A stretch of DNA of 23,413 nt, taken from the IMG/VR virus record IMGVR_UViG_3300006921_000165, positions 1 through 23,413 of that record; one strand, written 5' to 3'. Position 1 is the stretch's first letter. Each line of letters begins with the position of its first letter. Source of the stretch: a virus. Positions 1-21,700 of the stretch are shown in pieces. Both the position numbers and the translations under genes were made by a program. Under the pieces are notes generated by a model. It searched no databases and was not told the origin of the DNA. It saw only the letters and a list, made by a program, of their open reading frames with translations.

Positions 1-65
1 CCTGCAGCTGAATCCTGCAGCTGAATCCTGCAAGTAGATCCGTCAAGTCGGACCCGCAAGTAGTA
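1..65. repeat. 13-bp tandem repeat array, cut by the window edge
   Basis: Five consecutive 13-bp units are visible. Units 1 and 2 (1-13, 14-26) are identical, CCTGCAGCTGAAT. Unit 3 (27-39) is CCTGCAAGTAGAT, unit 4 (40-52) is CCGTCAAGTCGGA and unit 5 (53-65) is CCCGCAAGTAGTA. The word AAGTAGATC recurs at about 94. The array starts at base 1, so it probably continues to the left. It lies in a non-coding stretch in front of the first early gene. A part in replication origin, packaging or a terminal repeat is possible, but nothing in the sequence decides between them. Confidence 0.7.
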
Positions 66-167: not shown

Positions 168-189
168 AAAAATACTCAAACGTATTTTT
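168..189 (+). promoter_or_regulatory. Hairpin element, copy 1 of 4
   Basis: The stem is AAAAATAC (168-175) paired with GTATTTTT (182-189), around the six-base loop TCAAAC. Three related hairpins lie at 1093, 3462 and 5280. The three stem pairs next to the loop differ between copies but always stay complementary. This copy stands about 40 bases before the first gene of the early block. TATAAC follows at 197-202. With a single G-C pair this would be a very weak terminator, so a promoter or RNA-processing role is at least as likely. A small additional inverted repeat, GTGGT/ACCAC (143-147/154-158), lies just upstream. Confidence 0.55.
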
Positions 190-227
190 TAATTACTATA
201 ACTTAAAACTCATGGAAGGAGTTTACA

Positions 228-728
228 ATGACTAAAGTATTAAAAGCAATCGAAAATATCGTAGATCACATGGATCAAGTATTAATGGGTAAAGATAAAG
301 CCTATGATATAATAGACTACGAAGTTGATGTAGATAATAGAACAGACTTAGCTAAGTTCTATTACGACATAGCATCACAGAAAGGTACATCAGTACCACT
401 TAGAGATGTTAAATGTCATCACTGTTTAAAACCATTTGTAGTGTTAGAAGATCGTGCACCAGAAGATACATGTACATGTGTATATAAACGTATAGTTAAT
501 CCGTATACTAAAGGATTCAGTCTACGTAATCTAACAGAAGAAACCTATGCAGTAATGTTCAAAGCAAATGCTTACGAAAATAATGTAAGTAATCCGCTTC
601 CGAATGCAAAGCAAGCTGTGTGGAATAATAAATATGCCGATCGTATAAGTGTATCACGCTCTTTCGGTAAAAATAATATGCTTAGTAATAGTGGTACTAC
701 TCTAGGCTTAGCAAAGGATTTTGTATAA
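228..728 (+). CDS. Early protein of unknown function with Cys cluster
   Basis: This 166-aa protein is the first gene of the + strand early block. The start is supported by a strong ribosome site, GGAAGGAG, just before the ATG. Residues 63-84 contain CHHC (Cys63, Cys66) and CTC (Cys82, Cys84), which could bind one zinc ion. The remainder is mixed charged sequence with no signal peptide or membrane segment. The stop codon shares a base with the next start (TAATG), which implies translational coupling. I do not recognise the family. Its position suggests an early role, such as host takeover, but that is inference only. Confidence 0.75.
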   Translation: MTKVLKAIENIVDHMDQVLMGKDKAYDIIDYEVDVDNRTDLAKFYYDIASQKGTSVPLRDVKCHHCLKPFVVLEDRAPEDTCTCVYKRIVNPYTKGFSLRNLTEETYAVMFKANAYENNVSNPLPNAKQAVWNNKYADRISVSRSFGKNNMLSNSGTTLGLAKDFV

Positions 729-985
729 TGCGTATAGATAAAAAGATAAATGATGTAAAATGGTTTGTAAAAGACAGCAATACTTATGTCAGTGAACCAT
801 TAGTCATGGAATCAGCAGCAGGCTGGTACATTGGTAAAATATGCGAAGTCATATATGAATACGACGATGGTATACAGAAATGTGTAGAATCATGGGAAAG
901 ATGTACAGAATATATGACATACGATGAAGCAAAAAGATATATGGAAAGCATGGAAAGATTAGAAGAAAATCATCTAGATTTGTAA
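728..985 (+). CDS. Small early protein, unknown function
   Basis: This 85-aa acidic, tyrosine- and tryptophan-rich protein has a start that overlaps the previous stop by one base. The AAAGGA at the end of the upstream gene serves as ribosome site, about nine bases ahead. The C-terminal third (YDEAKRYMESMERLEE) looks helical. No known domain is apparent. It is followed by about 160 non-coding bases that hold hairpin copy 2. Confidence 0.65.
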   Translation: MRIDKKINDVKWFVKDSNTYVSEPLVMESAAGWYIGKICEVIYEYDDGIQKCVESWERCTEYMTYDEAKRYMESMERLEENHLDL

Positions 986-1092
986 GTTAATAGCATAGAT
1001 CATATGTCGATACATAGATAAATAATGTTATGAGATTAAATTAAACCTACATCTCATTCCTACATCTCCTTCCACCAACTAAAACCTACAAC

Positions 1093-1114
1093 AAAAATGC
1101 CCGAAAGCATTTTT
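1093..1114 (+). promoter_or_regulatory. Hairpin element, copy 2 of 4
   Basis: The stem is AAAAATGC (1093-1100) paired with GCATTTTT (1107-1114), around the loop CCGAAA. Relative to copy 1 the stem changes TAC/GTA to TGC/GCA, a compensated change. It lies in the 164-base gap between 985 and 1150, 35 bases before the next start codon. A T-run follows (1110-1115), so this copy could also act as a weak terminator. The rest of the gap (986-1092) is AT-rich with no ORF of note. Confidence 0.55.
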
Positions 1115-1149
1115 TAAACAACTAAATAAACTAACTTAAATGAGGTAAC

Positions 1150-1398
1150 ATGGATACAGAGTTAAAAATAGTAATACAAGGTTTACTCAGTCTTGCAGAC
1201 AAAGCTCAAGAAGATATAGACAGTCTTGATTCTATTAGTTCTGTTGCTGAGTTAAATAATCGTGGTTTAATTCTTCAAGATATCGAAGAACATATAGAAG
1301 GTTTATCGTTCTATATTACAGCCAATACGTTATTACGTAATAAACTAGAAGAACTAAGTAATAAAATCGTTAAAAAGAAATTAGTCACATTACATTAG
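1150..1398 (+). CDS. Small early protein, helical, unknown function
   Basis: This 82-aa protein is predicted by eye to be almost entirely helical, with leucine, isoleucine and acidic residues at heptad-like spacing (residues 5-75), so a small coiled-coil protein is plausible. GAGGT sits just before the ATG as ribosome site. It is the first gene after hairpin copy 2 and is followed after 12 bases by another small gene, so the two are probably co-transcribed. I recognise no family. No cysteines or membrane segment are present. Confidence 0.65.
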   Translation: MDTELKIVIQGLLSLADKAQEDIDSLDSISSVAELNNRGLILQDIEEHIEGLSFYITANTLLRNKLEELSNKIVKKKLVTLH

Positions 1399-1410
1399 AA
1401 AGGTTACACA

Positions 1411-1668
1411 ATGGCTATGATGAAAAGATTATATAATGAAATGCAAGATGAAGTCACTAACATAGTTCAAGAAAGCTGGGACAATGCTGTATCAGATATG
1501 GAATCCATACGTGAACAAACCGTTGAAAATGCATGTGACGCAGTATATAACTTAGGTCGTGAAAAAGGTTTAGATCCTGAAGATGTCGAATGGCTTCTCA
1601 AAGGTTCTGAGCACGGCACAGTAGAAGACTTTGTTATAGATCACTTCGATCATTGTTGGGATCTATAA
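1411..1668 (+). CDS. Small acidic early protein, unknown function
   Basis: This 85-aa strongly acidic protein has the ribosome site GAAAGG seven bases before its ATG. The first 45 residues are probably helical. The C-terminal part ends in a short His/Asp/Trp-rich tail (DHFDHCWDL). Small acidic early proteins in phages often act as inhibitors of host DNA-binding proteins, but nothing in this sequence identifies a target. The 66-base gap that follows leads into the SSB gene. Confidence 0.65.
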   Translation: MAMMKRLYNEMQDEVTNIVQESWDNAVSDMESIREQTVENACDAVYNLGREKGLDPEDVEWLLKGSEHGTVEDFVIDHFDHCWDL

Positions 1669-1734
1669 TAAACGGACCTGAGTATGTCCATTAAACTGCT
1701 TTTAAATCTAAAAACAACTGAAAGGTAATTCCTA

Positions 1735-2217
1735 ATGAATAAGTTTGAACCAAGAAATTATAGAATAAATAACGTAGAACTAAACTGGGCTAAGCTAACA
1801 AAGCCTGTCTCACCGTTTGGTCAACCACAGTACGAGCTGCAAATTGCTACAAAAGACAAAGCAGTCGCAGACGAGTGGTCTAATAATCACTTCACTGTCA
1901 AAGAAAAAGACGGTAAATATAGTGTATCACTAAAGCGTAAAGCTCTCAAAGCCGATGGCTCTGACAATGGTGCACCAAAAGTTGTAGGCGCAGATGCTAA
2001 ACCAGTAGATGCTTCTTCGCTTGGTAATGAATCAACAGGTAATGTAATTGTATATCAAATGTATTACAAAACTGCAGGTCGCGAAGGTATTGCAAGTTCT
2101 CTTACTGCTGTACAAATCACAGACTTCAAAGAATATACAGGTTCTGCAGACTTCGAACCAATCACAGATATTCATGGTCCTTCTGAAGAAGTATCACAGT
2201 CTGAGATTGCATTCTAG
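1735..2217 (+). CDS. T7 gp2.5-like single-stranded DNA-binding protein
   Basis: This 160-aa protein is probably the ssDNA-binding protein of the replisome. It would coat single strands and contact the polymerase and helicase at the fork. The N-terminal half (residues 10-60, with LTKPVSPFGQPQYELQIAT) fits the OB-fold pattern of gp2.5-like phage proteins. The C-terminus (SEEVSQSEIAF) is acidic and ends in an aromatic residue, as the essential gp2.5 tail does. It is shorter than T7 gp2.5 (232 aa). The ribosome site is GAAAGGT. A hairpin terminator follows directly at 2284, so the gene is partly insulated from the next. The family call rests on the tail and overall pattern, so it is likely but not certain. 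Confidence 0.7.
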   Translation: MNKFEPRNYRINNVELNWAKLTKPVSPFGQPQYELQIATKDKAVADEWSNNHFTVKEKDGKYSVSLKRKALKADGSDNGAPKVVGADAKPVDASSLGNESTGNVIVYQMYYKTAGREGIASSLTAVQITDFKEYTGSADFEPITDIHGPSEEVSQSEIAF

Positions 2218-2283
2218 TGATTGCTCTTTACCTTAAAGTGCAGCTATTTCTCATAGTTGCATCAGCATTCATATAAACTTACA

Positions 2284-2310
2284 GGCGTCTACATTCGTGT
2301 AGGCGTCTTT
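2284..2310 (+). terminator. Rho-independent terminator with TTCG loop
   Basis: A ten-pair stem, GGCGTCTACA (2284-2293) with TGTAGGCGTC (2298-2307), includes three G-U pairs and is closed by a TTCG tetraloop. It is followed by TTTAATAA. It stands after the SSB gene and 18 bases before the next start. A second hairpin (GCAGCTAT/ATAGTTGC, about 2239-2261) precedes it. Confidence 0.6.
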
Positions 2311-2327
2311 AATAAGAAAGGTAAATC

Positions 2328-2915
2328 ATGGCTACATTAGACTTCACAGATAAAAGAACTTCAAGCGATTACAAATTTACAATAAAAAGTAAATCAGATC
2401 CTGCATTAGCTAAACTAAAACGTATGGTTGCAAGTCGTAACAAAGATATACGTATCAGCTGTAGAAAATATAATCGTAAAGTAATCGATGGATATCAATT
2501 ACAAAGAGTTCTCTTAATGGCACGTGGTAAACGTGTAGATAACAAAGGGAAATTATTACATGGAAATGCAAGAACTTGTCTTCAGCATGGATACGCAGAG
2601 CGCTTTGATGTGTACGTTAGCAATGATAGGCATAATTCTGATAAGCTTAACGAAGAAATAATGACAGGCTTAACAGCTCATCAACAACGTTTAGTATCTA
2701 CATACGAAAGAGATATACGTGACTACAAGCGTATAAATCAAGCTATACTCAAAGATAGTGGTATCTATACTTACTACCTCGATGACGTAGAATGTCAAGG
2801 TACTAAAGATAGAATGTACAAAGATCTATACAACTGCTATGTAACTCACGGTAATGCGTCTCCTAATCGCTTCGATAATATGGTAGATATAGGTTGTTGG
2901 CAGCATGCAAGATGA
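2328..2915 (+). CDS. Basic early protein of unknown function
   Basis: This 195-aa protein is basic, unlike its acidic neighbours, with many Arg and Lys residues in the first 90 positions and several tyrosines. That composition suits a nucleic-acid-binding role, but no known motif was found. The ribosome site is GAAAGGT, and the gene starts just after the terminator at 2284-2310. The last 11 bases overlap the next gene in another frame. There is no P-loop, no cysteine cluster and no membrane segment. I do not recognise the family. Confidence 0.7.
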   Translation: MATLDFTDKRTSSDYKFTIKSKSDPALAKLKRMVASRNKDIRISCRKYNRKVIDGYQLQRVLLMARGKRVDNKGKLLHGNARTCLQHGYAERFDVYVSNDRHNSDKLNEEIMTGLTAHQQRLVSTYERDIRDYKRINQAILKDSGIYTYYLDDVECQGTKDRMYKDLYNCYVTHGNASPNRFDNMVDIGCWQHAR

Positions 2916-3189
2916 TGTAACGCATGAGATTACTATCGATATTGAATTAACAGATCAAGAATGTATAGACCTTATTGCTGCAGGTATCATGGTTAATGTT
3001 AAAATTATTATAACAGAATCAAGACGTATAGTAACACTTCACACTGATTGTATTCAAACAGTTATAGATATACTATCGTCTTTAAATCTAATCACATCAC
3101 TTGTTAAACTTCGCGGCATACATGACTACGATCTAGCATATATCGAAGATCCTAATAAATATGAAATAGCTTTTGAACCAGAGGTGTAA
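2905..3189 (+). CDS. Small acidic early protein, unknown function
   Basis: This 94-aa protein starts inside the end of the previous gene and has only a weak ribosome site, so it is probably coupled to upstream translation. Residues 8-60 are rich in isoleucine and valine and look like alternating strands. The C-terminus is acidic. No family was recognised. Its stop lies two bases before the next ATG. Confidence 0.6.
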   Translation: MQDDVTHEITIDIELTDQECIDLIAAGIMVNVKIIITESRRIVTLHTDCIQTVIDILSSLNLITSLVKLRGIHDYDLAYIEDPNKYEIAFEPEV

Positions 3190-3190
3190 C

Positions 3191-3463
3191 ATGAAACAAC
3201 CAACAACTCGTAAAAAACGTCTAAGTTTACTAGATAAACTATACTTTATACAAGAACTGATACGTGATCTTGAAGATCAAATAGAAGATCATGACACAGG
3301 TCACATACATACTGCAATAAACGTATTACATACAGAAGAATATAAAATCGCAGATAGCATATCATTCGCATTAAAAAATCAAAAAACTATAAATGACGAT
3401 GATTATGTCGACGACTTAAAAGATATCTTAGGTGATAATCTTTCATACGGAGGCACTGCGTAA
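3191..3463 (+). CDS. Small helical early protein, unknown function
   Basis: This is a 90-aa protein. I choose the ATG at 3191, since GAGGTG lies five bases ahead; an upstream in-frame start at 3173 has no ribosome site. The N-terminus is basic (MKQPTTRKKR), followed by a helical acidic segment (LSLLDKLYFIQELIRDLEDQ). The first codons contain an 18-bp sequence that recurs in non-coding DNA at 5157-5174. The stop codon overlaps the first bases of hairpin copy 3. The function is unknown. Confidence 0.65.
   Translation: MKQPTTRKKRLSLLDKLYFIQELIRDLEDQIEDHDTGHIHTAINVLHTEEYKIADSISFALKNQKTINDDDYVDDLKDILGDNLSYGGTA
3195..3212 (+). repeat. 18-bp direct repeat, first copy
   Basis: AACAACCAACAACTCGTA occurs here inside the start of a gene (codons for QPTTR) and again, exactly, at 5157-5174 in the gap before the + gene at 5187. 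The two copies bracket roughly 2 kb that includes the minus-strand island. Confidence 0.7.
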
Positions 3464-3481
3464 AACGCCCAAAAGCGTTTT
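3462..3481 (+). promoter_or_regulatory. Hairpin element, copy 3 of 4
   Basis: The stem is AAAACGC (3462-3468) paired with GCGTTTT (3475-3481), around the loop CCAAAA. The first two stem bases are part of the TAA stop of the upstream gene. After the stem comes CACAATAG, not a T-run, so it is a poor terminator. TATAAC follows at 3491-3496, a similar distance from the stem as in copy 1. It precedes the 27-aa membrane protein gene. Confidence 0.55.
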
Positions 3482-3501
3482 CACAATAGTTATAACTAAA
3501 C

Positions 3502-3528
3502 ACTTTTAGAATAGTAACGGCTAAAAGT
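3502..3528 (+). promoter_or_regulatory. Inverted repeat in the leader of the 27-aa gene
   Basis: A perfect eight-base inverted repeat, ACTTTTAG (3502-3509) and CTAAAAGT (3521-3528), surrounds an 11-base spacer. It ends five bases before the ribosome site AAAGGT of the gene at 3548. It could be an RNA hairpin that tunes translation or an operator; the sequence does not say which. Confidence 0.35.
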
Positions 3529-3547
3529 AGCGAAAGGTAAACGTTCT

Positions 3548-3631
3548 ATGTTAACAGAATTTATGATTTTTCTCGGCTATTTCCTACCAGCTTTATTTAT
3601 AGTTCGAGCAATCAATTATTATTTGAGGTGA
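3548..3631 (+). CDS. 27-aa hydrophobic small membrane protein
   Basis: This very short gene runs ATG to TGA and encodes MLTEFMIFLGYFLPALFIVR followed by AINYYLR. Residues 5-20 form one hydrophobic segment long enough to span a membrane. Positive charges (Arg20, Arg27) lie after it, suggesting the C-terminus faces the cytoplasm. A good ribosome site (AAAGGT, about nine bases ahead) supports translation. Its stop lies within the GAGGTG ribosome site of the next gene, so coupling is likely. Small single-span phage proteins can be holins, superinfection-exclusion factors or inhibitors; I cannot choose among these. Confidence 0.55.
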   Translation: MLTEFMIFLGYFLPALFIVRAINYYLR

Positions 3632-3635
3632 ATAT

Positions 3636-3890
3636 ATGACTTTACAACTACACAACGATCCTATTACATGTACGAAGGTATCTAATGATATTAAAATGAT
3701 ACAAAGTATTAAAGAACATTTAAATTATCTACGATGGTTAGTCAAACAAAATTATACTGAAACAAAAATCGCAGAAAACTTATATATATTTATGAAAAAT
3801 CAGCGTAGCGATATAGAACGCGAAGACAGACGTGAAGCAATAGAACGTAGAAACTTGCTAAATAACGGCTATACGAAAGGAGCTCACTAA
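3636..3890 (+). CDS. Small early protein, helical and charged, unknown
   Basis: This 84-aa protein has the ribosome site GAGGTG six bases before its ATG. Residues 20-75 look like a long helix that becomes strongly charged (RSDIEREDRREAIERRN), compatible with a coiled coil. Start and stop codons overlap the neighbours closely, and the stop shares a base with the next ATG (TAATG). I know of no family with this sequence. Confidence 0.65.
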   Translation: MTLQLHNDPITCTKVSNDIKMIQSIKEHLNYLRWLVKQNYTETKIAENLYIFMKNQRSDIEREDRREAIERRNLLNNGYTKGAH

Positions 3891-4300
3891 TGGCATCTAT
3901 AACTTTAAATGACAAAGAATATCTAACAGAATGTGCAGTAAGATTTCAAGCTCATATGATATCTACAAGAAGACATGTCAATGCTATGAAAACTTGTATT
4001 TCTGAATTAGCTGTACTTTTCGAAGACGAAGAATGTGCAGTCGACATGGATACAGCTGACGATGCAAGATCACTATTGCAAAATCAAGTTATTCCATATT
4101 TAAATGAAATAGATAATATGATTAATGATATAGTTGAAGTCGAATCAGAAGATGAAATACACTTATTAACTAAGCAATACAAAGAAGCTCTTCGAGATAT
4201 CGAAGAACATAAAAAGTTTATAAAGTCCTTCAAAAAGTGGAGTGCTTATGAATTTAGTAATTATAAATTAAACAACGTCGTACCAATGTCATCATCATAA
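3890..4300 (+). CDS. Acidic helical early protein, unknown function
   Basis: This 136-aa acidic protein is translated from GGAG eight bases upstream, and its start overlaps the previous stop. Residues 10-125 are almost all helix-forming, with glutamate and aspartate clusters (LFEDEE, EVESEDE), suggesting an elongated helical bundle. The C-terminus is a flexible Ser-rich tail. No domain was recognised. It is followed after 14 bases by the next gene. Confidence 0.65.
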   Translation: MASITLNDKEYLTECAVRFQAHMISTRRHVNAMKTCISELAVLFEDEECAVDMDTADDARSLLQNQVIPYLNEIDNMINDIVEVESEDEIHLLTKQYKEALRDIEEHKKFIKSFKKWSAYEFSNYKLNNVVPMSSS

Positions 4301-4314
4301 TGAAAGGATACTAA

Positions 4315-4509
4315 ATGCCAAGCATGAAAATACCACATAATAAAGTAACTTATCCCGAAGAGCTTGTATGGCCAATCGGTTCCCAAGACTTACGATTTAT
4401 AAGAACTACTGATCGTTATGACGATAAAGGCACTATCAGTAATAATCGCGGTTACTTAAAAGTAATGCGAGATATGTCTACTGGTCAATTCCGTAGTATA
4501 TCATGTTAA
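4315..4509 (+). CDS. Small early protein, unknown function
   Basis: This 64-aa protein has ribosome site AAAGGA eight bases before the ATG. It is mildly basic, with a Pro-rich N-terminal part (residues 1-20) and a probable beta-rich remainder. The stop overlaps the start of the 43-aa gene at 4503 (ATGTTAA). The function cannot be inferred. Confidence 0.6.
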   Translation: MPSMKIPHNKVTYPEELVWPIGSQDLRFIRTTDRYDDKGTISNNRGYLKVMRDMSTGQFRSISC

Positions 4510-4634
4510 AAACTGAGTTCTTTACTTGGCTTCAATCATGTCCATCAGTAGAGTGGATTATTACAGAAGAAAAAGTAACTGCAAGTGATTATGATATAAT
4601 ACAGATAAGCTTTGCTGTTGATAAAGAAAAATAA
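4503..4634 (+). CDS. 43-aa protein at the end of the early block
   Basis: This short gene overlaps the end of the 4315 gene by seven bases in another frame, so translation by stop-start coupling is likely. The product begins MLKTEFFTWLQSCPSVEW and ends DIIQISFAVDKEK. It contains no known motif and is not strongly hydrophobic. Its stop comes seven bases before a terminator stem, exactly where the last gene of an operon would end, which supports it as real. Confidence 0.5.
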   Translation: MLKTEFFTWLQSCPSVEWIITEEKVTASDYDIIQISFAVDKEK

Positions 4635-4640
4635 AATAAG

Positions 4641-4680
4641 CCGCTAAGAATACGAAAAGTACTCTTAGCGGCGTTATTTT
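4641..4680. terminator. Bidirectional terminator between converging genes
   Basis: The stem is CCGCTAAGAATAC (4641-4653) with GTACTCTTAGCGG (4659-4671) and a five-base loop, with one A-C mismatch on the + strand. On the minus strand that position is a G-U pair. A T-rich tail follows on both strands (GTTATTTT on +, TTATTTTATTTTTC on minus). It ends the + early block and the minus gene at 4710. Its inner core CTAAGA/TCTTAG recurs in the terminator at 14903. Confidence 0.8.
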
Positions 4681-4709
4681 GTAAAGACATTCTTATATAA
4701 CCTGCAACT

Positions 4710-5111
4710 CTAACCCCCATCCGTTAATTCGCGTATTTTGCGGTCAAGTTCGTCTTCAGATAACTCAGAAGTATCTAAGTTCTTTGTTGTCTGATCTATT
4801 CTTTGCAGCTTTGGCTGCTCATATTCTGCTAAGGCTATAGCTAAACGCTCAATAGTATCTTGATCTTCAAGCTGCATAGCTTTAACTAGCTGCACCTTCA
4901 GTATCTCTACAGCTGTGGGCATCTCTGTAATTATCTCATCTCTGATTTTTCTAAATTCAGACGCAGATAATTTCATAGACTCCCTAAGTTGCCTGTTCTG
5001 TCTTCGTGCTTCTGCACCTTTCGCCTGCATCTCACGAGCTTTCTCAGAGTCCATATAGGGCTTGAGCTGCTTGAGAGAATTAGGGTGCTTGCCACAGTTC
5101 TCGTAACCCAT
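4710..5111 (-). CDS. Possible small terminase subunit
   Basis: This is a 133-aa protein. I take the ATG at 5111, because GGAGG lies six bases ahead on the minus strand; a TTG at 5123 is upstream but overlaps that site. The N-terminal SLKQLKPYMDSEKAREMQAK and the basic helical stretch after it recall the DNA-binding head of small terminase subunits. The acidic C-terminus (SELSEDELDRKIRELTDGG) also resembles such proteins. If correct, it recognises viral DNA for packaging. It is alone on the minus strand within a + strand region, the strand used by the late genes. An alternative is a small transcription regulator. The family call is tentative. Confidence 0.4.
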   Translation of the reverse strand: MGYENCGKHPNSLKQLKPYMDSEKAREMQAKGAEARRQNRQLRESMKLSASEFRKIRDEIITEMPTAVEILKVQLVKAMQLEDQDTIERLAIALAEYEQPKLQRIDQTTKNLDTSELSEDELDRKIRELTDGG

Positions 5112-5156
5112 GTAAACCTCCAAGTTAATTGTCTTTTAGGAGACATTTAAAATTTT

Positions 5157-5174
5157 AACAACCAACAACTCGTA
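5157..5174 (+). repeat. 18-bp direct repeat, second copy
   Basis: This exactly repeats 3195-3212 (AACAACCAACAACTCGTA). Here it is non-coding, in the 75-base divergent gap between the minus gene at 5111 and the + gene at 5187. The bases before it form a 12-bp AT palindrome, TTAAAATTTTAA (5147-5158), which may contribute to a promoter or operator. Confidence 0.65.
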
Positions 5175-5186
5175 GAAGGGATTTAA

Positions 5187-5615
5187 ATGACTGACTACTT
5201 AAAGATTATAAAAGAATGTCAAGAAAGATTAGGTATTAAAGACGACTCAGTTCCTAATTACTTATCAGGTACTAAGTCAAAAACGCCCGAGAGCGTTTTC
5301 TATAACAATAAAAGAAAGGATAAACCAATGGCTAAAGTAACTGCCGTGCAGATTCTCAAAGAAGCTGCTGAACTTAAAGAAAGAAAGAGTAAAGATTATC
5401 AAGGTGGCATGTGGTCAGAAGAAGATTACTTTCCGTTCGGAGATAAATCTTATGTTCATATGATACATACAAAGTATTTACGTATGAGAAATATAGTTGA
5501 AGGCGATCAAGAAACAAACTTCGAAGCCTTAGAAGATACACTTGTAGACATGGCAGTATACTGTGCAATGTTTGCAGCACATATAGAAAACGTTAAAATG
5601 GAAAAGGATAACTAA
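5187..5615 (+). CDS. DUF1599-like (nucleotide modification associated) protein
   Basis: This ORF encodes 142 aa. Residues 48-138 contain the pattern KSKDY, then HTKYLRMRNIV, then EALEDTLVDMAVYC, which matches my memory of the DUF1599 / nucleotide-modification-associated domain 1 family found in phage nucleotide operons. Its biochemical role is not established. Two starts are possible. The ATG at 5187 has GAAGGGA ahead. The ATG at 5328 has AAAGGA seven bases ahead and gives a 95-aa protein made only of the domain. Hairpin copy 4 lies in frame between them, so both forms could be made. The next gene starts on the last base of the stop (TAATG). The operon continues with a TS-fold enzyme and a pyrophosphohydrolase. 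Confidence 0.65.
   Translation: MTDYLKIIKECQERLGIKDDSVPNYLSGTKSKTPESVFYNNKRKDKPMAKVTAVQILKEAAELKERKSKDYQGGMWSEEDYFPFGDKSYVHMIHTKYLRMRNIVEGDQETNFEALEDTLVDMAVYCAMFAAHIENVKMEKDN
5280..5299 (+). promoter_or_regulatory. Hairpin element, copy 4 of 4 (inside a reading frame)
   Basis: The stem is AAAACGC (5280-5286) paired with GCGTTTT (5293-5299), around the loop CCGAGA. The stem is the same as in copy 3, with a different loop. It is followed at once by CTATAAC and, 29 bases after the stem, by an ATG (5328) with a good ribosome site. Read as protein it encodes KTPESVF in the long form of the DUF1599-like gene. Confidence 0.5.
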
Positions 5616-12053: not shown

Positions 12054-12502
12054 TGCCTGATATAAATAAACTAGATAAATTATTCATGGATATTACTAAT
12101 AGAATAGCTAATATGTCTCATGATAATGGTACAAAAGTAGGTGCTATCATTGTTAAAGATGGTAACATACTTAGTATGGGTTATAATGGCATGCCTTCGG
12201 GCATGTCTAATAACTGTAAAGATGAACATGGTGTAACCAATAAAGAGGTTATACACGCAGAGGCTAATGCCATATGCAAACTAGCGCAGAGTACAAGCTC
12301 GTCTAAAGGTGCAACACTATACTGCACGTACTCACCTTGTATTGAATGTGCTAAACTAATACTACAAAGTGGTATTGAGAGAGTAATATATGCTAATGAT
12401 TATCGTGATGTTAATGGCAGACTATTACTAGACGATCAAATTAAAATAGGTAAGGTACAATATGCAGGATCAACTTCACTATATACAGGAGAAGATACGT
12501 AA
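12053..12502 (+). CDS. dCMP deaminase
   Basis: This 149-aa cytidine-deaminase-fold enzyme has the zinc site HAE (His68, Glu70) and PCIEC (Cys96, Cys99). It converts dCMP to dUMP, feeding dTTP synthesis. The substrate would be shared with the dCMP hydroxymethylase-like enzyme at 5615, so the two compete for dCMP. T4 also carries both enzymes. The start overlaps the primase stop by one base. The last 41 bases overlap the RNA polymerase gene. Confidence 0.88.
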   Translation: MPDINKLDKLFMDITNRIANMSHDNGTKVGAIIVKDGNILSMGYNGMPSGMSNNCKDEHGVTNKEVIHAEANAICKLAQSTSSSKGATLYCTYSPCIECAKLILQSGIERVIYANDYRDVNGRLLLDDQIKIGKVQYAGSTSLYTGEDT

Positions 12503-14654
12503 AGCTAAAGCCCATATAGCTTGCAGCTTACTAAAGATGTCTACTGCTGCAGACTTAAAAGCCTACCTTGTGTTTAGTATGGATACTATACAACAACACT
12601 TCACCCGTAATAGTATACGTGGAAATAAATCCTACCAAGGTGAAGCTAATCTTACTCATTTAAGTACAACGATTGGCACATATATCTTAGATGATATAAA
12701 TTACTATCACGACGATCAACCACCTTGGGAATGGTTTAAACTACGTGTAATGATGGGTGACTTAATGTTAGAAGCATTCTACCAAACACACCAGATAAAT
12801 ATTGGTAAGAATAAAAATGAAGAGTTCGTACCAATGGAAAGTCTGGATCGTAGTCTTAAAAGAAGTCGTACGCACTACATAGTAGTACCTGAACTGTGGA
12901 ATTTACAGGTACCAGAAGGCAGTAAAGATCTACTAATAGGTACAGTTTTCACTAGACCTTTAGATATATCAGATCTTATGCAGCCTACTGATAGACCAGT
13001 TATTAAAGGCTGGACAGATCAGAGAACAGCTGAGTTTAAATACTATGTACGTAGAGATTTCATTCAGAGTATGAATGTATTACAACAAACTCCTTGGAAA
13101 ATAAATACTCAAGTACGAGATATACTACATCGTAATCGTAATAAAATATTAAATCAACATAAAAAGTTTCCAAAGAAATACAAGTCAAAGATTATAGAGT
13201 TTGATTTAACTATGGCTAGATCAGATATGATTGATGACAGAACTTTCTACCAATATACAGAAGCAGATTATCGTGGACGTATATACTACACTACACCCTT
13301 CTTAAACTTTCAAAGTAATGATATCGCAAGAGGTCAGATGCTATTCTCTAACGGAAAGCGTATGACAGCCGCGGGTATGAGAAGGTTATACATACATGTT
13401 GCTTGCTGCTACAACGAAACATATCATAAAGATGAGTTACCAGAGTGGCTAACGACAGACTATAGACCATACCTTGAGGACGAGGGACTAGAAGATATAT
13501 CAGTAGATAAGATGACGCTAGACGATCGCGAGGCGTGGACAGAGAATAACTTAAGATTAATACTAGAGATAGCTCATGACGAAAGAATAGAGTTATCTGC
13601 AGAAAAACCTATTACATTACTTGCTTGTGCATTAGAAATATATAATGCTACATCAACTGATGAACCTTGGTATACGTATTTACCTATACCTATAGATGGT
13701 AGCAATAACGGATGGCAACATCTTTGTGCTATGTCTAAAGATAAAGAAGCTGCTTACCTTGTTGGTGTTGTACCTCAGAAAATACAAAAAGATTTCTATG
13801 TACAGTGTGCCAAGAATTTAATAAGCAGACTACCCGAGTGGTTTGAAGAAAGGCAAATGCCTATGAAACATATCCGCAAAGGTATCGCTAAACGTGGATC
13901 TATGACCCGTGCTTACAGTGCAGGTGCTAAGAAGATTGCAGAGAATATGTATCTTGATTGTCACGTAGAAGGATACTTAGAACGATACAACATTACTAAA
14001 GACGATTGTCAACTGCTAGCTAAGCATTTAGTAAAAGCAATTGACGATGTATGTGCTGGTCCATTACAAACTATGAAGTTTCTACAGAAGATAGCTGAAG
14101 CAGAAATAGCTTCTGACTATGCTAAAGAAACACAGCAGAAATCTATAAAATGGAAAGCTCCGAGTGGATTTCCAGTTATATACGAAGCATTCATAGATAA
14201 TGAATTCAAAGAGAAAGCTATCATAAGCTGCAGCGAAAGAAAAGTTAAACCTGTTATTAGAAAAGAGGACGGAACAGAAGAAGTAACAGATACTATACGC
14301 ATACAGCATGTTGGTAAAGAGAATACAGACAAACCTAAAATTAAATCATTTATGTCTGGTATATCTCCTAACTTTGTACATTCAATGGACGCAGCTCATA
14401 TGTCTAATGTAATACAACAATGGGATGGAGACTTCGGTGCTATCCATGATTCATTCAGCGTACACGCATGTGATGTTGATGAGTTACTACAGATAATCAA
14501 AGACGAGTTTGTACATATGTACGATCACAGTAATTACTTTACTATAATTGAGCGTATGATTATTACAAACCCAGATAATTTTAACTATACACAGCCAAGG
14601 ACAGGATCTTTGGAGATAAGAGAGGTGCAAGACAGTGAATACTTCTTCGCGTAA
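12462..14654 (+). CDS. T7-like single-subunit RNA polymerase
   Basis: This 730-aa DNA-directed RNA polymerase has all the core motifs: YRGR (Arg273, as T7 Arg425), motif A DGSNNGWQH (Asp412, as Asp537), motif B KRGSMTRAY (Lys477 and Tyr485, as Lys631 and Tyr639) and motif C HDSF (Asp663, as Asp812). The C-terminus YFFA resembles the FAFA foot of T7 RNAP. It is about 150 aa shorter than T7 RNAP, with the loss mainly in the N-terminal, promoter-contacting part. The start at 12462 has AAGG ahead; the ATG at 12537 is an alternative. It probably transcribes late genes. Its place after the replication genes differs from T7, where RNAP is early. Confidence 0.93.
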   Translation: MQDQLHYIQEKIRKAKAHIACSLLKMSTAADLKAYLVFSMDTIQQHFTRNSIRGNKSYQGEANLTHLSTTIGTYILDDINYYHDDQPPWEWFKLRVMMGDLMLEAFYQTHQINIGKNKNEEFVPMESLDRSLKRSRTHYIVVPELWNLQVPEGSKDLLIGTVFTRPLDISDLMQPTDRPVIKGWTDQRTAEFKYYVRRDFIQSMNVLQQTPWKINTQVRDILHRNRNKILNQHKKFPKKYKSKIIEFDLTMARSDMIDDRTFYQYTEADYRGRIYYTTPFLNFQSNDIARGQMLFSNGKRMTAAGMRRLYIHVACCYNETYHKDELPEWLTTDYRPYLEDEGLEDISVDKMTLDDREAWTENNLRLILEIAHDERIELSAEKPITLLACALEIYNATSTDEPWYTYLPIPIDGSNNGWQHLCAMSKDKEAAYLVGVVPQKIQKDFYVQCAKNLISRLPEWFEERQMPMKHIRKGIAKRGSMTRAYSAGAKKIAENMYLDCHVEGYLERYNITKDDCQLLAKHLVKAIDDVCAGPLQTMKFLQKIAEAEIASDYAKETQQKSIKWKAPSGFPVIYEAFIDNEFKEKAIISCSERKVKPVIRKEDGTEEVTDTIRIQHVGKENTDKPKIKSFMSGISPNFVHSMDAAHMSNVIQQWDGDFGAIHDSFSVHACDVDELLQIIKDEFVHMYDHSNYFTIIERMIITNPDNFNYTQPRTGSLEIREVQDSEYFFA

Positions 14655-14902: not shown

Positions 14903-14945
14903 CCCCTAAGATTACCATACGGTATTCTTAGGGGTATTTTTTTTT
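14903..14945. terminator. Bidirectional terminator between + and late minus genes
   Basis: The stem is CCCCTAAGATTACC (14903-14916) with GGTATTCTTAGGGG (14921-14934) and loop ATAC, with one T-T mismatch. It is followed on the + strand by TATTTTTTTTT and on the minus strand by TTTTTTATTAG. It separates the + replication block from the converging late operon. Core bases CTAAGA/TCTTAG are shared with the terminator at 4641. Confidence 0.88.
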
Positions 14946-17900
14946 ACAAGTCTATATTTAAAACAGTCGACGTATCTTTAGCAAATTCTTTTCCAAAGGC
15001 TTCAGCTTTTCTTGCAACATCCAAACTTCTTTTGGTAAGATCAATTTCTTGTGTTATAATTTTTACTATTCTTATCCATTGTTTACCTGTTATTGTATTA
15101 GCTGTTCTTAAATTTAAACCTAAATCAGCTTTAATACGTTTTTCAATTTTAGTAGCTGCAGTTTGAGCTGCTGTATCTATACGTTCTTTAAATTCATTAG
15201 ATGTTTCAGCAGTATCTGAACGAGATACCTTAAAAACATGAGACAATTCATTAACAAGATTTATCTGCTCACCCGGTCTACCCGATCTTTTAACAGCAGA
15301 TCTAAACAAATATCCAAGACCTTTTAACTCACCGACACCAGACTCTCCTTCATCTCTAGCTTCTTTAAAGTTTAAAATGCGATCATTATTATGCAGCTTA
15401 ACAAATTCTGCAGTAGTATCAGGATACCAGTTACGCATAACATCAACAAGAGCATTATGATTTATAATGCCGTCTTTTAAATTCTTATTAGTTTCTGGTC
15501 TAAGTTGACCTAATGTACCTAAATCTGTTAGATAAGCATCAAATATTGGTTTAACCCATGCACCTTGAGTGGATCCGTTTAACTTAGCTTTTTCATTTAA
15601 ACGTTTTAAAGAAGCACCACTTAATGTAGAAGCAACCATGTTACCATCATAGCTTTGTACAAGTGTAGCAATGATTCTAGGGTTAAAACCTCCTGGGCCA
15701 AGGCCCTGTCTAACAGCAGATCCTTGTACATTAGCGCCATAGTATTGAGTTGTAATTTGTTTTAAACCAGCGAAATCAACACCAGTTTGAGTTTGCATTT
15801 GACGACCTTCTTTATCAACCATAATAGTTTCTTTACCAGATGCAACTGATTCAAAACCTAATGCGTTTGTAAAAGTTAAAGGCATGTTAGTTATTTGTGA
15901 TACTAAACCCATACCCTTAAGAACTTTACTAGTTTCAATTGTTGCTTCATCAAGTAAATTAAATATAGAATTAACAAGCATCGTATGTAAAAAGTTTATA
16001 GTCTCTTGTTCTTTTTGCTGATACATTAAAGGGTTACCAGCATCATTATTACTCGGAGGTAACTGGTCTTTAATAAGCCTTTGTATCTTATCCGATTGTG
16101 GACCTACTTGTACTACGCTTTCAACATGTTGTTTAAGTGATTCAATGTTCTGCCCATATCCCATAGTCATAGGAGATTTTTTAAGATACATATCTCTATC
16201 TGCGATAGCAAATTCTAAAATAGATGCCATCAAAGGTAGCTCACCATCTTTAACTAACGACGCACCAACAGAACTATTAATAGTAGTTCTCATATCTTCT
16301 GCCATTGCATCGCGTAAATCTATTTCATCACGAGCGTAATAGTTCTGAGTTCTTATTAATCCACCACGCTTAGCCATTTCAGGAACACCGATAAGAGCTG
16401 CGTTAGTAGTATTACCATGAGTCACACCATCAATTTCAACAGTGATAGATGTTGTAAATGGTTTACTAGTTTTGTCGTTTAAAGCTTTATCATATCGATA
16501 TAAATCCATGTAATATTGTATAAACATTGGAAATTCTTTACCGTGTTTAGCAAGAATTTCTTTTATATTACTGTTAGTTCCTAAAGGATCTGCGTTAAAC
16601 TCTGGCATTTGCCGTAGTTGTTCTCTTAATTGTCTTACTTCTTGCTCACTTGTGGCATTAGCTAATTTACTTATCGCATCTTTTGAAAAACTGACAGGTA
16701 AATCTTTTTCTATTTCAGATAATGTTTTACCTATTTCAACAGCTGTATAATAAGACGAATCTCTCTGGTTTTTTAATCTATTAAAAGCGTCTACTCTATA
16801 CTCAGGTGAAAGTGTTTCAATACCTTTCTTAGTTCTTATATCATTATCAAGTACAGGATCATTTAATATTTTAGTAGCTATGATTTCTTTCCAAAGCTTT
16901 TCTAAACGAGTATCTTTTCCTGCTGGAAATCTATAAGGAACTCCACTACTTAGAACTGCTCTTACACTTTTATGAGCTTGATAATCCCATATGTCTTCAT
17001 CAATATGCAATCTACCTGTCAACGCTTGTACTACATATCTATTGTATGTTGCGGCATCTCCATATCTAATAATAGCATCTATTTGATTAATAGTTTTTTG
17101 AGCTTCTAATGTCTGAAGTTTTTGAGGATTATACATTCTTATAGTAAGCTCTAACATTTGTACTATACGAGGGTTAGGAGAATCTTTAGCTAACTCTACA
17201 GCTAAATCAGCTTTATAAACTTCTTTACCTTTTATAAATTCTCTAAGTCTTGCTTGACCTATTTCAAACATATCAGAGTATAGATCACTAGTACCATCTG
17301 TATTACGATCTGCTTTTAATAAAGCATGTAAACCAAAGACAATAGAAAAATCACCTTTAGTTTTATCAACAACATTAGGTATGTTAGATAAGTTTCTTGC
17401 TGCTTCACTTACTCTATTAGACATAATTTCTTTGACAACACTAGGCTTCATAACTGAAGTTATTGGTCTAAAAGTATTTGCTCGTTCACCGAGAGCTTTA
17501 TTATTAGGCGGTGCTAACGCAGGTCTTTTTTCTTGTGATTTAAAAAGTCCTTTAGTAGCTTTAGCTTGGTTCTGTAAAACTTGTCTGCCCACAGGAGTTA
17601 GTACAAAATCTATTGCACCTATATCAGAGTCTTTATTTGTTCTAAATAATATTTCTGGGTTAGCTTCAGCATAAGCTTCTTTTAAAATATCTCCTAATAA
17701 AGTAAAAGACTGTGGGGTTATTTTATTCTGATCTTCTAAATATGAATCAGTAGGTTCTCCTATTGCTTCTGATTGTATTCTTCTCCACTCTCTAAATACT
17801 TCTTGACCTAACTTTAAATTATCTTTAGATTTTTTTATAGCTAAAGGTTTTGCTAAAGATTCTGCAACAATTCCTTTAAATTGTTCAGGATTAAAAGTAG

Positions 17901-18720
17901 GCATACTTTCTATAGTATCGTATACATCATTTTCAATTATAGCATCTGGTGAAGAAGCCACCATATCTGAATGTAAAAAGTTTTCTACTATCATAGATGC
18001 AACGACACCAAAACCAGGATCAATTCGTGTAAAACCTGTATCAGGATCTTGTTTACCTGCGTTTAAAATATTAGGATTAAAGAAAATATTTTTAGCATTA
18101 ACAGCCGTGTTATCAACTGTTGTAGCTTTCTGCCAAGATTCTAAAGGCTTAACGCCTGTTTTTCTTTCTCGCTCTTCTACCAACGCATCGGCAAAACCTT
18201 TTGTCTCTGCTTCTGCTTGAAAGAAATTTGATAAAGAAGTTTTTACTTTAGTATTTAATATTTTTGCAAAGACATCAGCTCTAAGTAAACTACCTGATAC
18301 TACTTTATCGTCAGTAGCTGATAGCTTTAACTCTTCAAGTCGAGTAGTAATAGGTTTTACTCGTGACTCTTCAATTTCTCTCATAGCTGCATCTGAAGTT
18401 GCGTCAACAGATATGTCTTCTCCTTCTACAGCTTCTTGAAATATATCACCTGGTACACTAAGATCTCCTCCAAGATTTTCAGCTGCAAACTTATTTGTTT
18501 CAGAATCTATTTCTCTAGTAACTTCTGCAACTTCTGCATCTGGATCTATTGTAAATTTAGGATCTGCAACTGTTTTATCTTCTACTGTTTTATCTTCTAT
18601 AGCAGCAGTATCTCGTACAGTAGGCATAACGTTACCTAATCTATTATGTAGTTGTTCTACAGCTGTTTGACCTAGTGTAGATATTGCTTTACCTGGCTTT
18701 ATGTTTACATTAATAGCCAT
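14944..18720 (-). CDS. N4-type virion RNA polymerase-like protein
   Basis: This 1258-aa protein is the last gene of the late operon. It appears to be a single-subunit RNA polymerase. In order it shows TGR (Arg570, T7 Arg425), motif A EIDGVTHGNTT (Asp764, T7 Asp537), motif B KKSPMTMGYG (Lys847, Tyr855; T7 Lys631, Tyr639, same spacing) and motif C IFDAY (Asp1061, T7 Asp812). The TGR form and the EIDG motif recall the phage N4 virion RNA polymerase, which is packaged and injected to transcribe early genes. About 560 residues precede the core, the first 120 of them acidic. About 190 residues follow motif C. The ribosome site is GGGAG, and the start overlaps the upstream stop by one base. An internal virion protein without polymerase activity remains possible. 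Confidence 0.72.
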   Translation of the reverse strand: MAINVNIKPGKAISTLGQTAVEQLHNRLGNVMPTVRDTAAIEDKTVEDKTVADPKFTIDPDAEVAEVTREIDSETNKFAAENLGGDLSVPGDIFQEAVEGEDISVDATSDAAMREIEESRVKPITTRLEELKLSATDDKVVSGSLLRADVFAKILNTKVKTSLSNFFQAEAETKGFADALVEERERKTGVKPLESWQKATTVDNTAVNAKNIFFNPNILNAGKQDPDTGFTRIDPGFGVVASMIVENFLHSDMVASSPDAIIENDVYDTIESMPTFNPEQFKGIVAESLAKPLAIKKSKDNLKLGQEVFREWRRIQSEAIGEPTDSYLEDQNKITPQSFTLLGDILKEAYAEANPEILFRTNKDSDIGAIDFVLTPVGRQVLQNQAKATKGLFKSQEKRPALAPPNNKALGERANTFRPITSVMKPSVVKEIMSNRVSEAARNLSNIPNVVDKTKGDFSIVFGLHALLKADRNTDGTSDLYSDMFEIGQARLREFIKGKEVYKADLAVELAKDSPNPRIVQMLELTIRMYNPQKLQTLEAQKTINQIDAIIRYGDAATYNRYVVQALTGRLHIDEDIWDYQAHKSVRAVLSSGVPYRFPAGKDTRLEKLWKEIIATKILNDPVLDNDIRTKKGIETLSPEYRVDAFNRLKNQRDSSYYTAVEIGKTLSEIEKDLPVSFSKDAISKLANATSEQEVRQLREQLRQMPEFNADPLGTNSNIKEILAKHGKEFPMFIQYYMDLYRYDKALNDKTSKPFTTSITVEIDGVTHGNTTNAALIGVPEMAKRGGLIRTQNYYARDEIDLRDAMAEDMRTTINSSVGASLVKDGELPLMASILEFAIADRDMYLKKSPMTMGYGQNIESLKQHVESVVQVGPQSDKIQRLIKDQLPPSNNDAGNPLMYQQKEQETINFLHTMLVNSIFNLLDEATIETSKVLKGMGLVSQITNMPLTFTNALGFESVASGKETIMVDKEGRQMQTQTGVDFAGLKQITTQYYGANVQGSAVRQGLGPGGFNPRIIATLVQSYDGNMVASTLSGASLKRLNEKAKLNGSTQGAWVKPIFDAYLTDLGTLGQLRPETNKNLKDGIINHNALVDVMRNWYPDTTAEFVKLHNNDRILNFKEARDEGESGVGELKGLGYLFRSAVKRSGRPGEQINLVNELSHVFKVSRSDTAETSNEFKERIDTAAQTAATKIEKRIKADLGLNLRTANTITGKQWIRIVKIITQEIDLTKRSLDVARKAEAFGKEFAKDTSTVLNIDL

Positions 18721-21700
18721 TATCGATTCTCCCGTGCTTGTTGAATATCATATATACGTTGATTTTCTTTAGACATTTTGGAATAAGGTGTTTCGTACTT
18801 TTTAGGAGGAGACTTTCCAAATAATCCTTCAGCTATTGTTCTATTAAGTCTATTAAAAGGTCCTATAAATGGAGCTGTTTTCATTATATCATAAGCTCCT
18901 TTATCAGGTTGACCTTGTATTATTTTTCCTGCTCCACCGTATACACGAGTAACATTAGATAATGCTGCAGCTTCACCAGAGATAGTATTAAATAACCATT
19001 CAGCTGGACTATCAGAAGACTGTTCATATATAGGATACATAAAGTTCATAACTCTTTCACCAGTACCTAATAATCCTGATGCACCTATACCTCTTTGTAT
19101 TTTCTCTACAGGATCTAAGTAAGGAGTTGGTTCTCCATATTTTAATAGATCTTTTAAATACTGAGATAAGAATCCTAAGAATATCATAGTCATCATAACA
19201 GCAAATGCATTATACTTAAGCGAAGGGTTACCACGTTTAATGTATTCACCCCACATTTTAGGTATTTGATTAGCTGTAAATGTAGATATAAAACCTTGGA
19301 ACTGTGTGAACAAAGCAAGATGCTGGTTCTGATAATACAATGGTCTGTTAGCTGTGTTAGGTAAAGCAATAGCTATATTAACAAAGTTAAACTCTGCATC
19401 AAGCATCATAGCATCAAAATCTTTTAGCTGCTTGGGATTCCAAGGACCTTGCTGAGTTTGCATTCTAATAAGTAATTCAACATCTATACCTAAGTTTCTT
19501 AACAATTCTTCAGATTCTTGCATATCATTTGTTTTAGCATCACCACTTTTTCTACCATTTATAATAGTTTCTAAGTGACTCATAATATAATCATCTGCAA
19601 TAGAAGCACGTATGTTACGTGTATAATCAGTCCACTGTTGTAACCCAATTACTCTAAAATATTTATCTAACAAACGCCTTGATGCATGTGTAGTTTCTGT
19701 AGCACCAGTTGTCTGAGCTGCACCAACATCCCAATCAAAGAATCCTAATTGTTTTATACGTTCTTGTCTTTGCTCTTTCTTTAATTGACGATTAGTAGAG
19801 TTCCATCTAGGATCTGTCATAGTCGCCCACATAGCTTGTGCTGCTTCTTTAGATGCGTTACCTATTTCTTTAAATATTATATTTGGAGGAACGCTTACTG
19901 CAGTAACTGCTAGCTCTACAAATGAAGATATAGTAGCTAAAGGTAAACCTGCTATTGTAGTCCATACACCTAAATTCTTTTGTATCTTAGATATGTTAGC
20001 ATTTTTAATACGCTTGTAGTTACCTGATTCTGCATTTAAATAGTCTTGCATTTGCTTAGCAATACGATTTACGTTTTGCTCAGATACTCCTTCCTTCTCA
20101 GCTTCATTTAAAAGATAAGCAACTTTTTCATTGTTATCTCCTAAAAATTCTTGATATGTTATAACTCTTGAAGCTGACTTAGCTGCGTTAGATATATTTA
20201 CAAACGCATCTCTTTCCATAAACTCATTAAACTCAGGTCGTTGTGATAACCCTAACGTACGTTTCTTATGTGCAGCTGGAATAAATTTACTACCACCTAC
20301 TTGGAAATCTTGATCTGCTACTAATGTATCTTGATTAATAATATTATCTGTTAGTGTTGTTGCATCAGCTTTATTAAACTTAAATGTAGTCATAAGTGTT
20401 TGTATAAACTTTGCTCTATTCTTTTCAATAGCGCCTTTATTAAAAGATTTATACTTCATTAAATAATTATTAAGTCTTTTAACATCAAACTTTTTATTGT
20501 TTTCTTTATAAGATTTCTCTTGATCTGCTAATAGCTTATCTGATAGCATAGCTTGTTGGTTGTAATATTGTTTTAAGAAAGTTTCATAAGGTTTTAAATT
20601 AGCTGGAAGTGAATTCCAATTTACATTACTACCTTCCTTATCGTTATTACCTTTAGGATCTACAAGCCAGTATCCAAAATCATTTATTATTTCAGATAGC
20701 TTTGCTTGATCTACTGTTTTAATACCTGCTATACTAGCAAACTCTGCTGGAGTAGAAACTAAATTACGATATGTAGTTAATAAATGTTTCTTTCTATTCT
20801 CAAAGTTAACACCACTAAACGTACGTTGTAAGTTAGCACCAAACATATCAGCAAGTTTACGAAGAGATCTAGAACTATCTTGTAAAGCATCTGTGAATAT
20901 AAATCTAGTAGAACCTCTCCATAAACCTGGTATAGATTCCCATGTTCTTTTAACTCGATCCCATGTAGACATTTCTTTAGTATCAACTTTACTATCAGCT
21001 GCACGTTGATCTACAGTTTTAGTATTAACTTTAGTAGAAAATCTATCTTCAAGTTTTTTAGCTTGCTTAAGTCTTTTATTGTACGCGTTATCTGTTTCAT
21101 CAGCTTTAGCTATACTTCCATCTCTAAATTTATCACCTTTATTATATCTAGGTCTTATTAAATAATCATACGTATTTGATATATTAGGTGGCATAACTAC
21201 TTTATTTCTTTCGTTAGCTACTTTTTCACCAGCTTCTAGTGTTAATTCTTGTATAGATTCTACTCTTCCAAACTCTTCTAAGTCAGCTTCATATTGTGAA
21301 CCAGCTCTTGATAGTTTATTTGGATCAGCTTCAGCCTGTCTAACAGCTATATCAGTCCATGCACCTACATCAATCGCTGCTCCTGGTATAGAAAATCCTG
21401 CACCGAGAGTACCACCTGCTATAGTAGCATTTAATAATCTGTTTTGTAATTCATAAGCGTCGAATACTTTCTCACTACCTACTACAGCTGCCATGTAAGC
21501 AGTAGCTTCTTGCATTGCCTCAGTAGCACCCTCTGTTACTGCGCCTCTTGCACCTCTTTGAAATAAAGATCTTAAAACATTACGAGCTTTAAGCTGTTCT
21601 TTAGCTACAGTAGCTGCTGCTCCTGTAAGTAATGCAGCTTCTTTTCTAGTCATTTGTGCTAATATTTTTCTAGCATCACCAGGAGTTACACCATCTCTCT

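Follow-up and report, generated by a model that had tools for sequence, protein, structure and literature searches.

Hairpins in the early region

The 23.4-kb IMG/VR virus record analysed here (the window) encodes, reading rightward, an SSB-like protein, thymidylate synthase, MazG, a DNA polymerase, an exonuclease, a primase-helicase and a 730-amino-acid (aa) T7-like RNA polymerase; its late genes, starting at 14944, are read leftward. The nearest isolate to the window phage is Roseobacter phage CRP-7. Four small hairpins are spread over the early region, and our analysis indicates that they very probably act as early promoters for an RNA polymerase that the phage encodes, packages in its virion and injects together with its DNA, in the manner of phage N4.

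The common plan of these hairpins, AAAAYRC-N6-GYRTTTT, had been noticed in a first-pass annotation, which saw no copies elsewhere in the window. This is borne out: the pattern AAAAYRCNNNNNNGYRTTTT has exactly four matches in the window (169-188, 1094-1113, 3462-3481 and 5280-5299) and none in 100 dinucleotide shuffles, a control that the annotation itself had proposed. An eighth A-T pair extends the first two copies to 168-189 and 1093-1114. The bare core GCTNNCGC is too short for genome-wide counting, and a direct-repeat search of the window revealed no further promoter-like family. All four hairpins are on the plus strand, and each is a candidate early promoter. Hairpin 1 (168-189; AAAAATAC-TCAAAC-GTATTTTT) lies upstream of the open reading frame (ORF) at 228-728. 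Hairpin 2 (1093-1114; AAAAATGC-CCGAAA-GCATTTTT) precedes the ORFs at 1150-2915, among them the SSB-like gene (1735-2217), and hairpin 3 (3462-3481; AAAACGC-CCAAAA-GCGTTTT) precedes those at 3636-4509. Hairpin 4 (5280-5299; AAAACGC-CCGAGA-GCGTTTT) stands ahead of the replication operon (gene at 5328 onward). The loops are related, as had been proposed, with the consensus YCNARA. A T-run ends copies 1 and 2, and the two copies reported to have none beyond the stem are copies 3 and 4. The claim that the hairpins lie upstream of gene starts holds in that all of them are ahead of early genes, but copy 3 begins within the stop codon of the preceding ORF (which ends at 3463) and copy 4 sits within an open frame that spans 5187-5615, ahead of the point where the conserved gene at 5328 starts. 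This frame is continuous with that gene and is open in close relatives too, which would allow both a long and a short product.

Hairpin 4 lies just past a divergent TerS-like (terminase-small-subunit-like) gene (4710-5123, minus strand), which has a weak TerS match (E 0.13), is conserved in relatives and, in relatives as in the window, is reversed within the early region. Because this gene starts divergently, a new promoter is needed at hairpin 4. On its 3′ side, where it converges with the early genes, we found a terminator-like hairpin of 14 pairs, seven of them G-C (4640-4672), and used it as a control for what a terminator looks like in the window. Thus the four hairpins mark divergent points and leaders, and the terminator-like hairpin marks the convergent point.

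Covariation and DNA folding

The first-pass annotation had also described the stem changes as compensated and suggested scanning the window and its relatives with a covariance model. A model built from 14 distinct copies (window and relatives) finds 34 matches in 690 kb of window and relatives, all on the early strand; those in the window are the four hairpins, and there is no match in late regions, CRP-7 or N4. All 98 cells of the window-class stem pair, with 13 two-sided changes at the three inner pairs, no one-sided change and no G-U pair. Covariation in this class is 0.386, compared with 0.194 +- 0.031 for shuffled sequences; slid partners give no more than 0.165. Two further classes behave likewise: a second, with loop TNNC, from more distant relatives (0.536 vs 0.222 in shuffles), and a third, whose GC-TGYC-GC core is enclosed by a long outer stem (0.327 vs 0.101).

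Exchange by Watson-Crick pairs only, as seen in the window class, suits a DNA hairpin. In DNA folding, an additional inner T-G pair forms on the template strand and leaves a 4-nucleotide (nt) loop in four of the five window-type copies tested; the coding strand and the RNA cannot form this pair, because C stands opposite A in them. As RNA, the TAT copies found in relatives fold at only -0.5 kcal/mol.

Hairpins in related phages

Relatives of the T7-like polymerase are encoded by 62 viral contigs. In close relatives whose contigs include the early region, the same hairpin occurs on the early strand, in no more than five copies each. Across 2.9 million viral contigs, exact matches to the degenerate consensus occur in 15 stretches, most of them from the phage group of the window. 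Pattern matches in G051, G053 and G059 are single copies in apparently unrelated contigs and were set aside as chance occurrences or terminators.

In four relatives (G002, G012, G024 and G039) the first hairpin stands between the leftward TerL (terminase large subunit) gene and the first early gene. At the junction of TerS and the early genes, a hairpin is present in 38 of 38 non-redundant in-family junctions, many of which are related, so they do not amount to 38 independent events; the controls gave two for the reverse strand and a mean of 0.63 (maximum 4) for shuffles. The core GC-T(N)1-2C-GC accounts for 33 of these junctions, the window form for three and AGAGGC-GTT-GCCTCT for two. In one of the three window-form junctions (L202) the hairpin is cut by the 300-nt storage of the sequence and is visible in other data on the junction.

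The form of the hairpin shifts between lineages. At junctions occupied in the window or its close relatives by the form with the 6-nt loop, G012 has AAGAAGC-TAAC-GCTTCTT and G023 has AGAGGC-TTC-GCCTCT; other relatives have 4-nt template-strand loops of GNNA type or an outer stem of 8-9 base pairs (bp) with an internal loop. A further clade, whose TerS is 40-45% identical (L286-L295; contigs G061-G066 and G075), has the hairpin CGACC-ACRGG-GGTCG, with a compensated stem change of its own (AATCCGACC/GGTCGGATT, AATTCGACC/GGTCGAATT). In three contigs (G061, G062 and G066) two copies of this hairpin lie some 3.9 kb from each other on the same strand, and several contigs of the clade encode the family of the 1258-aa polymerase described below. 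For the group at 40% polymerase identity, we found no hairpin family in the DNA searched, which may miss the earliest region. In L119, the hairpin is duplicated together with its flanks about 400 nt apart (minus strand, 3631 and 4034), like a copied promoter unit.

A compact polymerase related to N4 vRNAP

The first-pass annotation had guessed that the hairpins serve the polymerase-like protein encoded at 14944, and this suggestion has gained considerably: the enzyme is real, the hairpins go with divergent junctions and early genes rather than with gene ends, and relatives have N4-like forms at the same junctions. The gene (14944-18720, minus strand) encodes a cysteine-free protein of 1258 aa. 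On the evidence of sequence profiles and a structural model, it is a single-subunit RNA polymerase, and the profile closest to it is that of the N4 virion RNA polymerase (vRNAP). Its 24 aligned family members (orthologs of about 1160-1430 aa) share, at positions with little or no variation, the E and D of motif A, the K...M...YG of motif B and a D fitting motif C, which in the window protein (PIFDAYLTD near 1059) was assigned by eye. The family profile matches that of thirteen N4-type vRNAPs with a probability of 96.7 (E 3.4e-10). The alignment spans the TxxGR region (TGR...YQAHKSVR vs N4-type VGR...NPQSAKLVR), motif A (VEIDGVTHG vs VEADGVTNG) and, near register, motif B. Compared with the phage's own T7-like polymerase, the same profile scores 0.1%. 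The family profile is needed for the strong match: with N4 as a single sequence, hhalign aligns the right motifs at a probability of 16%. Searches of the 1258-aa protein against PHROGs and Pfam and by tblastn in the isolate collection gave no match, and the family profile found nothing meaningful among PDB sequences. An AlphaFold model of residues 151-1258 (pTM 0.73) matches the T7, mitochondrial and N4 polymerases; the Foldseek E values are 5e-14 for T7 and 1e-12 for N4 (2po4).

With the polymerase domain of N4 gp50 (PDB 2po4, 3c2p, 3c3l) the protein thus shares catalytic motifs, best profile match and fold, as well as map position and absence of cysteine; it differs in having 1258 rather than 3500 aa and only 16% identity over the aligned profile columns. 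Like that of N4 gp50, the gene belongs to the late cluster and sits at the point of convergence. Cysteine is absent from the 1258-aa protein, its 24 orthologs and N4 gp50 (3500 aa), whereas its average share in 15 early and middle window proteins is 1.58%. The vRNAPs of LUZ7 and LIT1 are reported to be cysteine-free as well, a feature that was associated with their passing through the tail or the periplasm (PMC3715699). The features that bear on the proposed packaging of the 1258-aa polymerase in the virion are gene position and lack of cysteine. The polymerase gene adjoins that of a 1404-aa, likewise cysteine-free virion structural protein (phrog_6958; 18720-22934, minus strand), which is probably co-injected with the polymerase. 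The polymerase family is found in eight of the ten searched group records of at least 44 kb, and in shorter ones; the two exceptions are a fragment (G055) and CRP-7, which has a diverged candidate.

Likeness to N4 and to other phages

In N4 promoters the loop is of 3 nt, position -8 is a G and the start is at GG after TTTT, about 11 nt from the centre of the loop. On the coding strand, the three early promoters P1-P3, at N4 positions 90, 557 and 4546, read GTTGC-TTC-GCAAC, AAGAAGC-TCC-GCTTCTT and AAGCTGC-TCC-GCAGCTT. Like these and the proposed LUZ7/LIT1 promoters, the hairpins described here are small, stand upstream of early genes and lie on the early strand. They are also inverted repeats with varying stems, with an inner GC-loop-GC in most forms and a short T-tract, and the forms in G012 and G023 are nearly N4-like. 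N4 uses the hairpin of the template strand (PMC4496689; P1 oligonucleotide in PMC12633501). The number of copies differs, being four in the window and three in N4.

Several points weigh against reading the hairpins as N4-type promoters of the 1258-aa enzyme. The window form has a 6-nt coding-strand loop and an A4/T4 stem base; its template-strand loop is of 6 nt, or 4 nt with the inner T-G pair, and a 3-nt GNA template-strand loop on a stem of 5-7 bp occurs only in one relative (G023/L225). No GG start follows window-type hairpins, and the position equivalent to the G at -8 is A in five of 14 copies. The 1258-aa protein is too short to accommodate the N- and C-terminal domains that N4 gp50 has. 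Fold alone does not separate the T7 and N4 types, as the highest Z score of the model is with T7 (26.0 over 541 residues) and the longest VIA alignment is with N4 mini-vRNAP (731 residues, Z 22.0). In favour of the N4-type reading is a motif like AATARTA at a fixed distance, 15-16 nt from the start of the loop, in the two main classes. Its mean match is 5.39 of 7 compared with 3.56 +- 0.21 in shuffles (0 of 5000 as high), a figure that is descriptive because the motif was read from the same, related sequences; with regard to recognition and start site the motif is no more than suggestive. Members of Schitoviridae have a heterodimeric second polymerase (gp15/gp16) and a giant vRNAP, in contrast to the single 730-aa polymerase and the 1258-aa vRNAP-like protein of the window. 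In view of the differences in loop, position -8, start, enzyme size and second polymerase, we describe the group as working like N4 and not as a member of Schitoviridae.

CRP-7 (MK613349), the closest isolate by T7-like polymerase (33.8%), has the same gene order, and its TerL is 62% identical to that of the relative G002. Its gp33 (L068 17859-21566), annotated as hypothetical, occupies the vRNAP position, is free of cysteine and contains EAD and IHDA, resembling motifs A and C; a tblastn match connects it to L051 (E 6.6e-6). Judging by these features, gp33 is probably a diverged vRNAP, but direct profile comparison with the 1258-aa family gave no match. A search for window-type hairpins in CRP-7 found none; two hairpins at 331 and 1133, both with the loop TGTAATG, are no more than suggestive. 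In the passages searched, the CRP-7 publication reports a T7-like polymerase only (PMC6918029). In the podophage StenR_269, suggested to represent a new family, a vRNAP was proposed from size, helical content and lack of cysteine (PMC10747016); unlike in the window, promoters and hairpins do not figure in that proposal. In the literature searched, the coverage of which is incomplete, we found no description of hairpin promoters outside N4-like phages.

Alternative explanations

The T7-like polymerase (12462-14654, plus strand), the second polymerase of the phage and not named in the first-pass annotation, is a rival candidate for the user of the hairpins. It is clearly a phage RNA polymerase, promoters of such enzymes are short and repeated, and we found no other promoter motif for it: a search of the late gaps yielded nothing above the opposite-strand control. 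Yet there are no hairpins upstream of late genes, and this polymerase would appear too late for opening the early region through which its own gene is reached. Moreover, it is N4 vRNAP promoters that the hairpins resemble, and one would not expect double-stranded T7-type promoters to have stems that covary (PMC4496689, which compares T7 and N4). We therefore regard it as improbable that the hairpins belong to the T7-like enzyme.

The first-pass annotation had itself named terminators and RNA-processing sites as alternatives, and both fit less well than promoters. Weak intrinsic terminators or attenuators between early genes would agree with the A-tract, hairpin and T-tract plan, with the T-run ending copies 1 and 2 and with copy 3 directly following a stop codon. 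Intrinsic terminators, however, have a stable G-C-rich stem, a T-run and a place at the end of a gene or operon, and the hairpins do not show this combination: their stems have 0-3 G-C pairs, and the TAT copies are barely stable as RNA. Our scan for terminators passed over all four, and the 14-pair hairpin occupies the actual point of convergence. No early transcript reaches the first copy, which is placed in a divergent junction, and loop sequence, orientation and downstream motif are all conserved. Terminators or attenuators are thus a very unlikely explanation. Much the same low probability attaches to RNA elements of early transcripts (a processing site, a 5′ stabiliser or a boxB-like antitermination site), for which conserved purine-rich loops, compensated stems and position in early-gene leaders could be cited, and against which stand the lack of G-U pairs in the 98 cells of the window class, the poor folding of some copies as RNA, the extra inner pair on the template DNA strand only, the lack of enrichment of host-type promoters just upstream and an Rfam scan that returned no match.

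Proposed mechanism and implications

If the hairpins are promoters of the 1258-aa enzyme, early infection would most likely proceed as follows. The polymerase would enter with the first DNA, and negative supercoiling of the AT-rich early DNA would extrude the template-strand hairpin. The polymerase would then recognise the hairpin loop and inner stem and start within a few bases of the AATARTA motif. For hairpin 1, the probable initiation region is 186-197 (plus strand), which holds the AATARTA-like motif, and similar segments follow hairpins 2-4; the spacing in N4 suggests that +1 is at or next to the first base of the motif. Sites of sigma70 type (TTGACA/TATAAT-like) are not enriched just upstream of the hairpins (7.65 of 12 vs 7.81 at random positions). 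Besides early genes, the four promoters would supply the SSB-like gene and also the replication operon, which is situated beyond the opposing TerS-like gene. That operon includes the T7-like polymerase, which might then serve later genes in analogy to N4 RNAPII.

So far, hairpin promoters together with an injected 3500-aa polymerase have been known in N4 and its family, Schitoviridae. We consider it likely that a marine podovirus group outside this family uses injected compact N4-type polymerases and co-evolving hairpin promoters of several architectures (6-nt loop, 4-nt GNNA, 3-nt GNA, long outer stem with internal loop, and CGACC-ACRGG-GGTCG). If so, the same trick operates in an unrelated phage group with a far smaller enzyme, and hairpin promoters would represent a general regulatory mode whose recognition code shifts between lineages. 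The 1258-aa enzyme and its natural promoter series would offer a small and tractable system for studying the reading of the hairpin code and the changes in it. Injected polymerases would then drive early infection in widespread ocean phages, probably including the CRP-7 group.

Further observations

In N4 (L154), the hairpin AAAGCC-CCGAAG-GGCTTT at 45092, between gp51 and gp50, resembles the window form; it is probably a terminator. At the left end of the window (1-60) there are short imperfect direct repeats (CCTGCAGCTGAAT...), possibly the edge of the assembly or of a terminal repeat.

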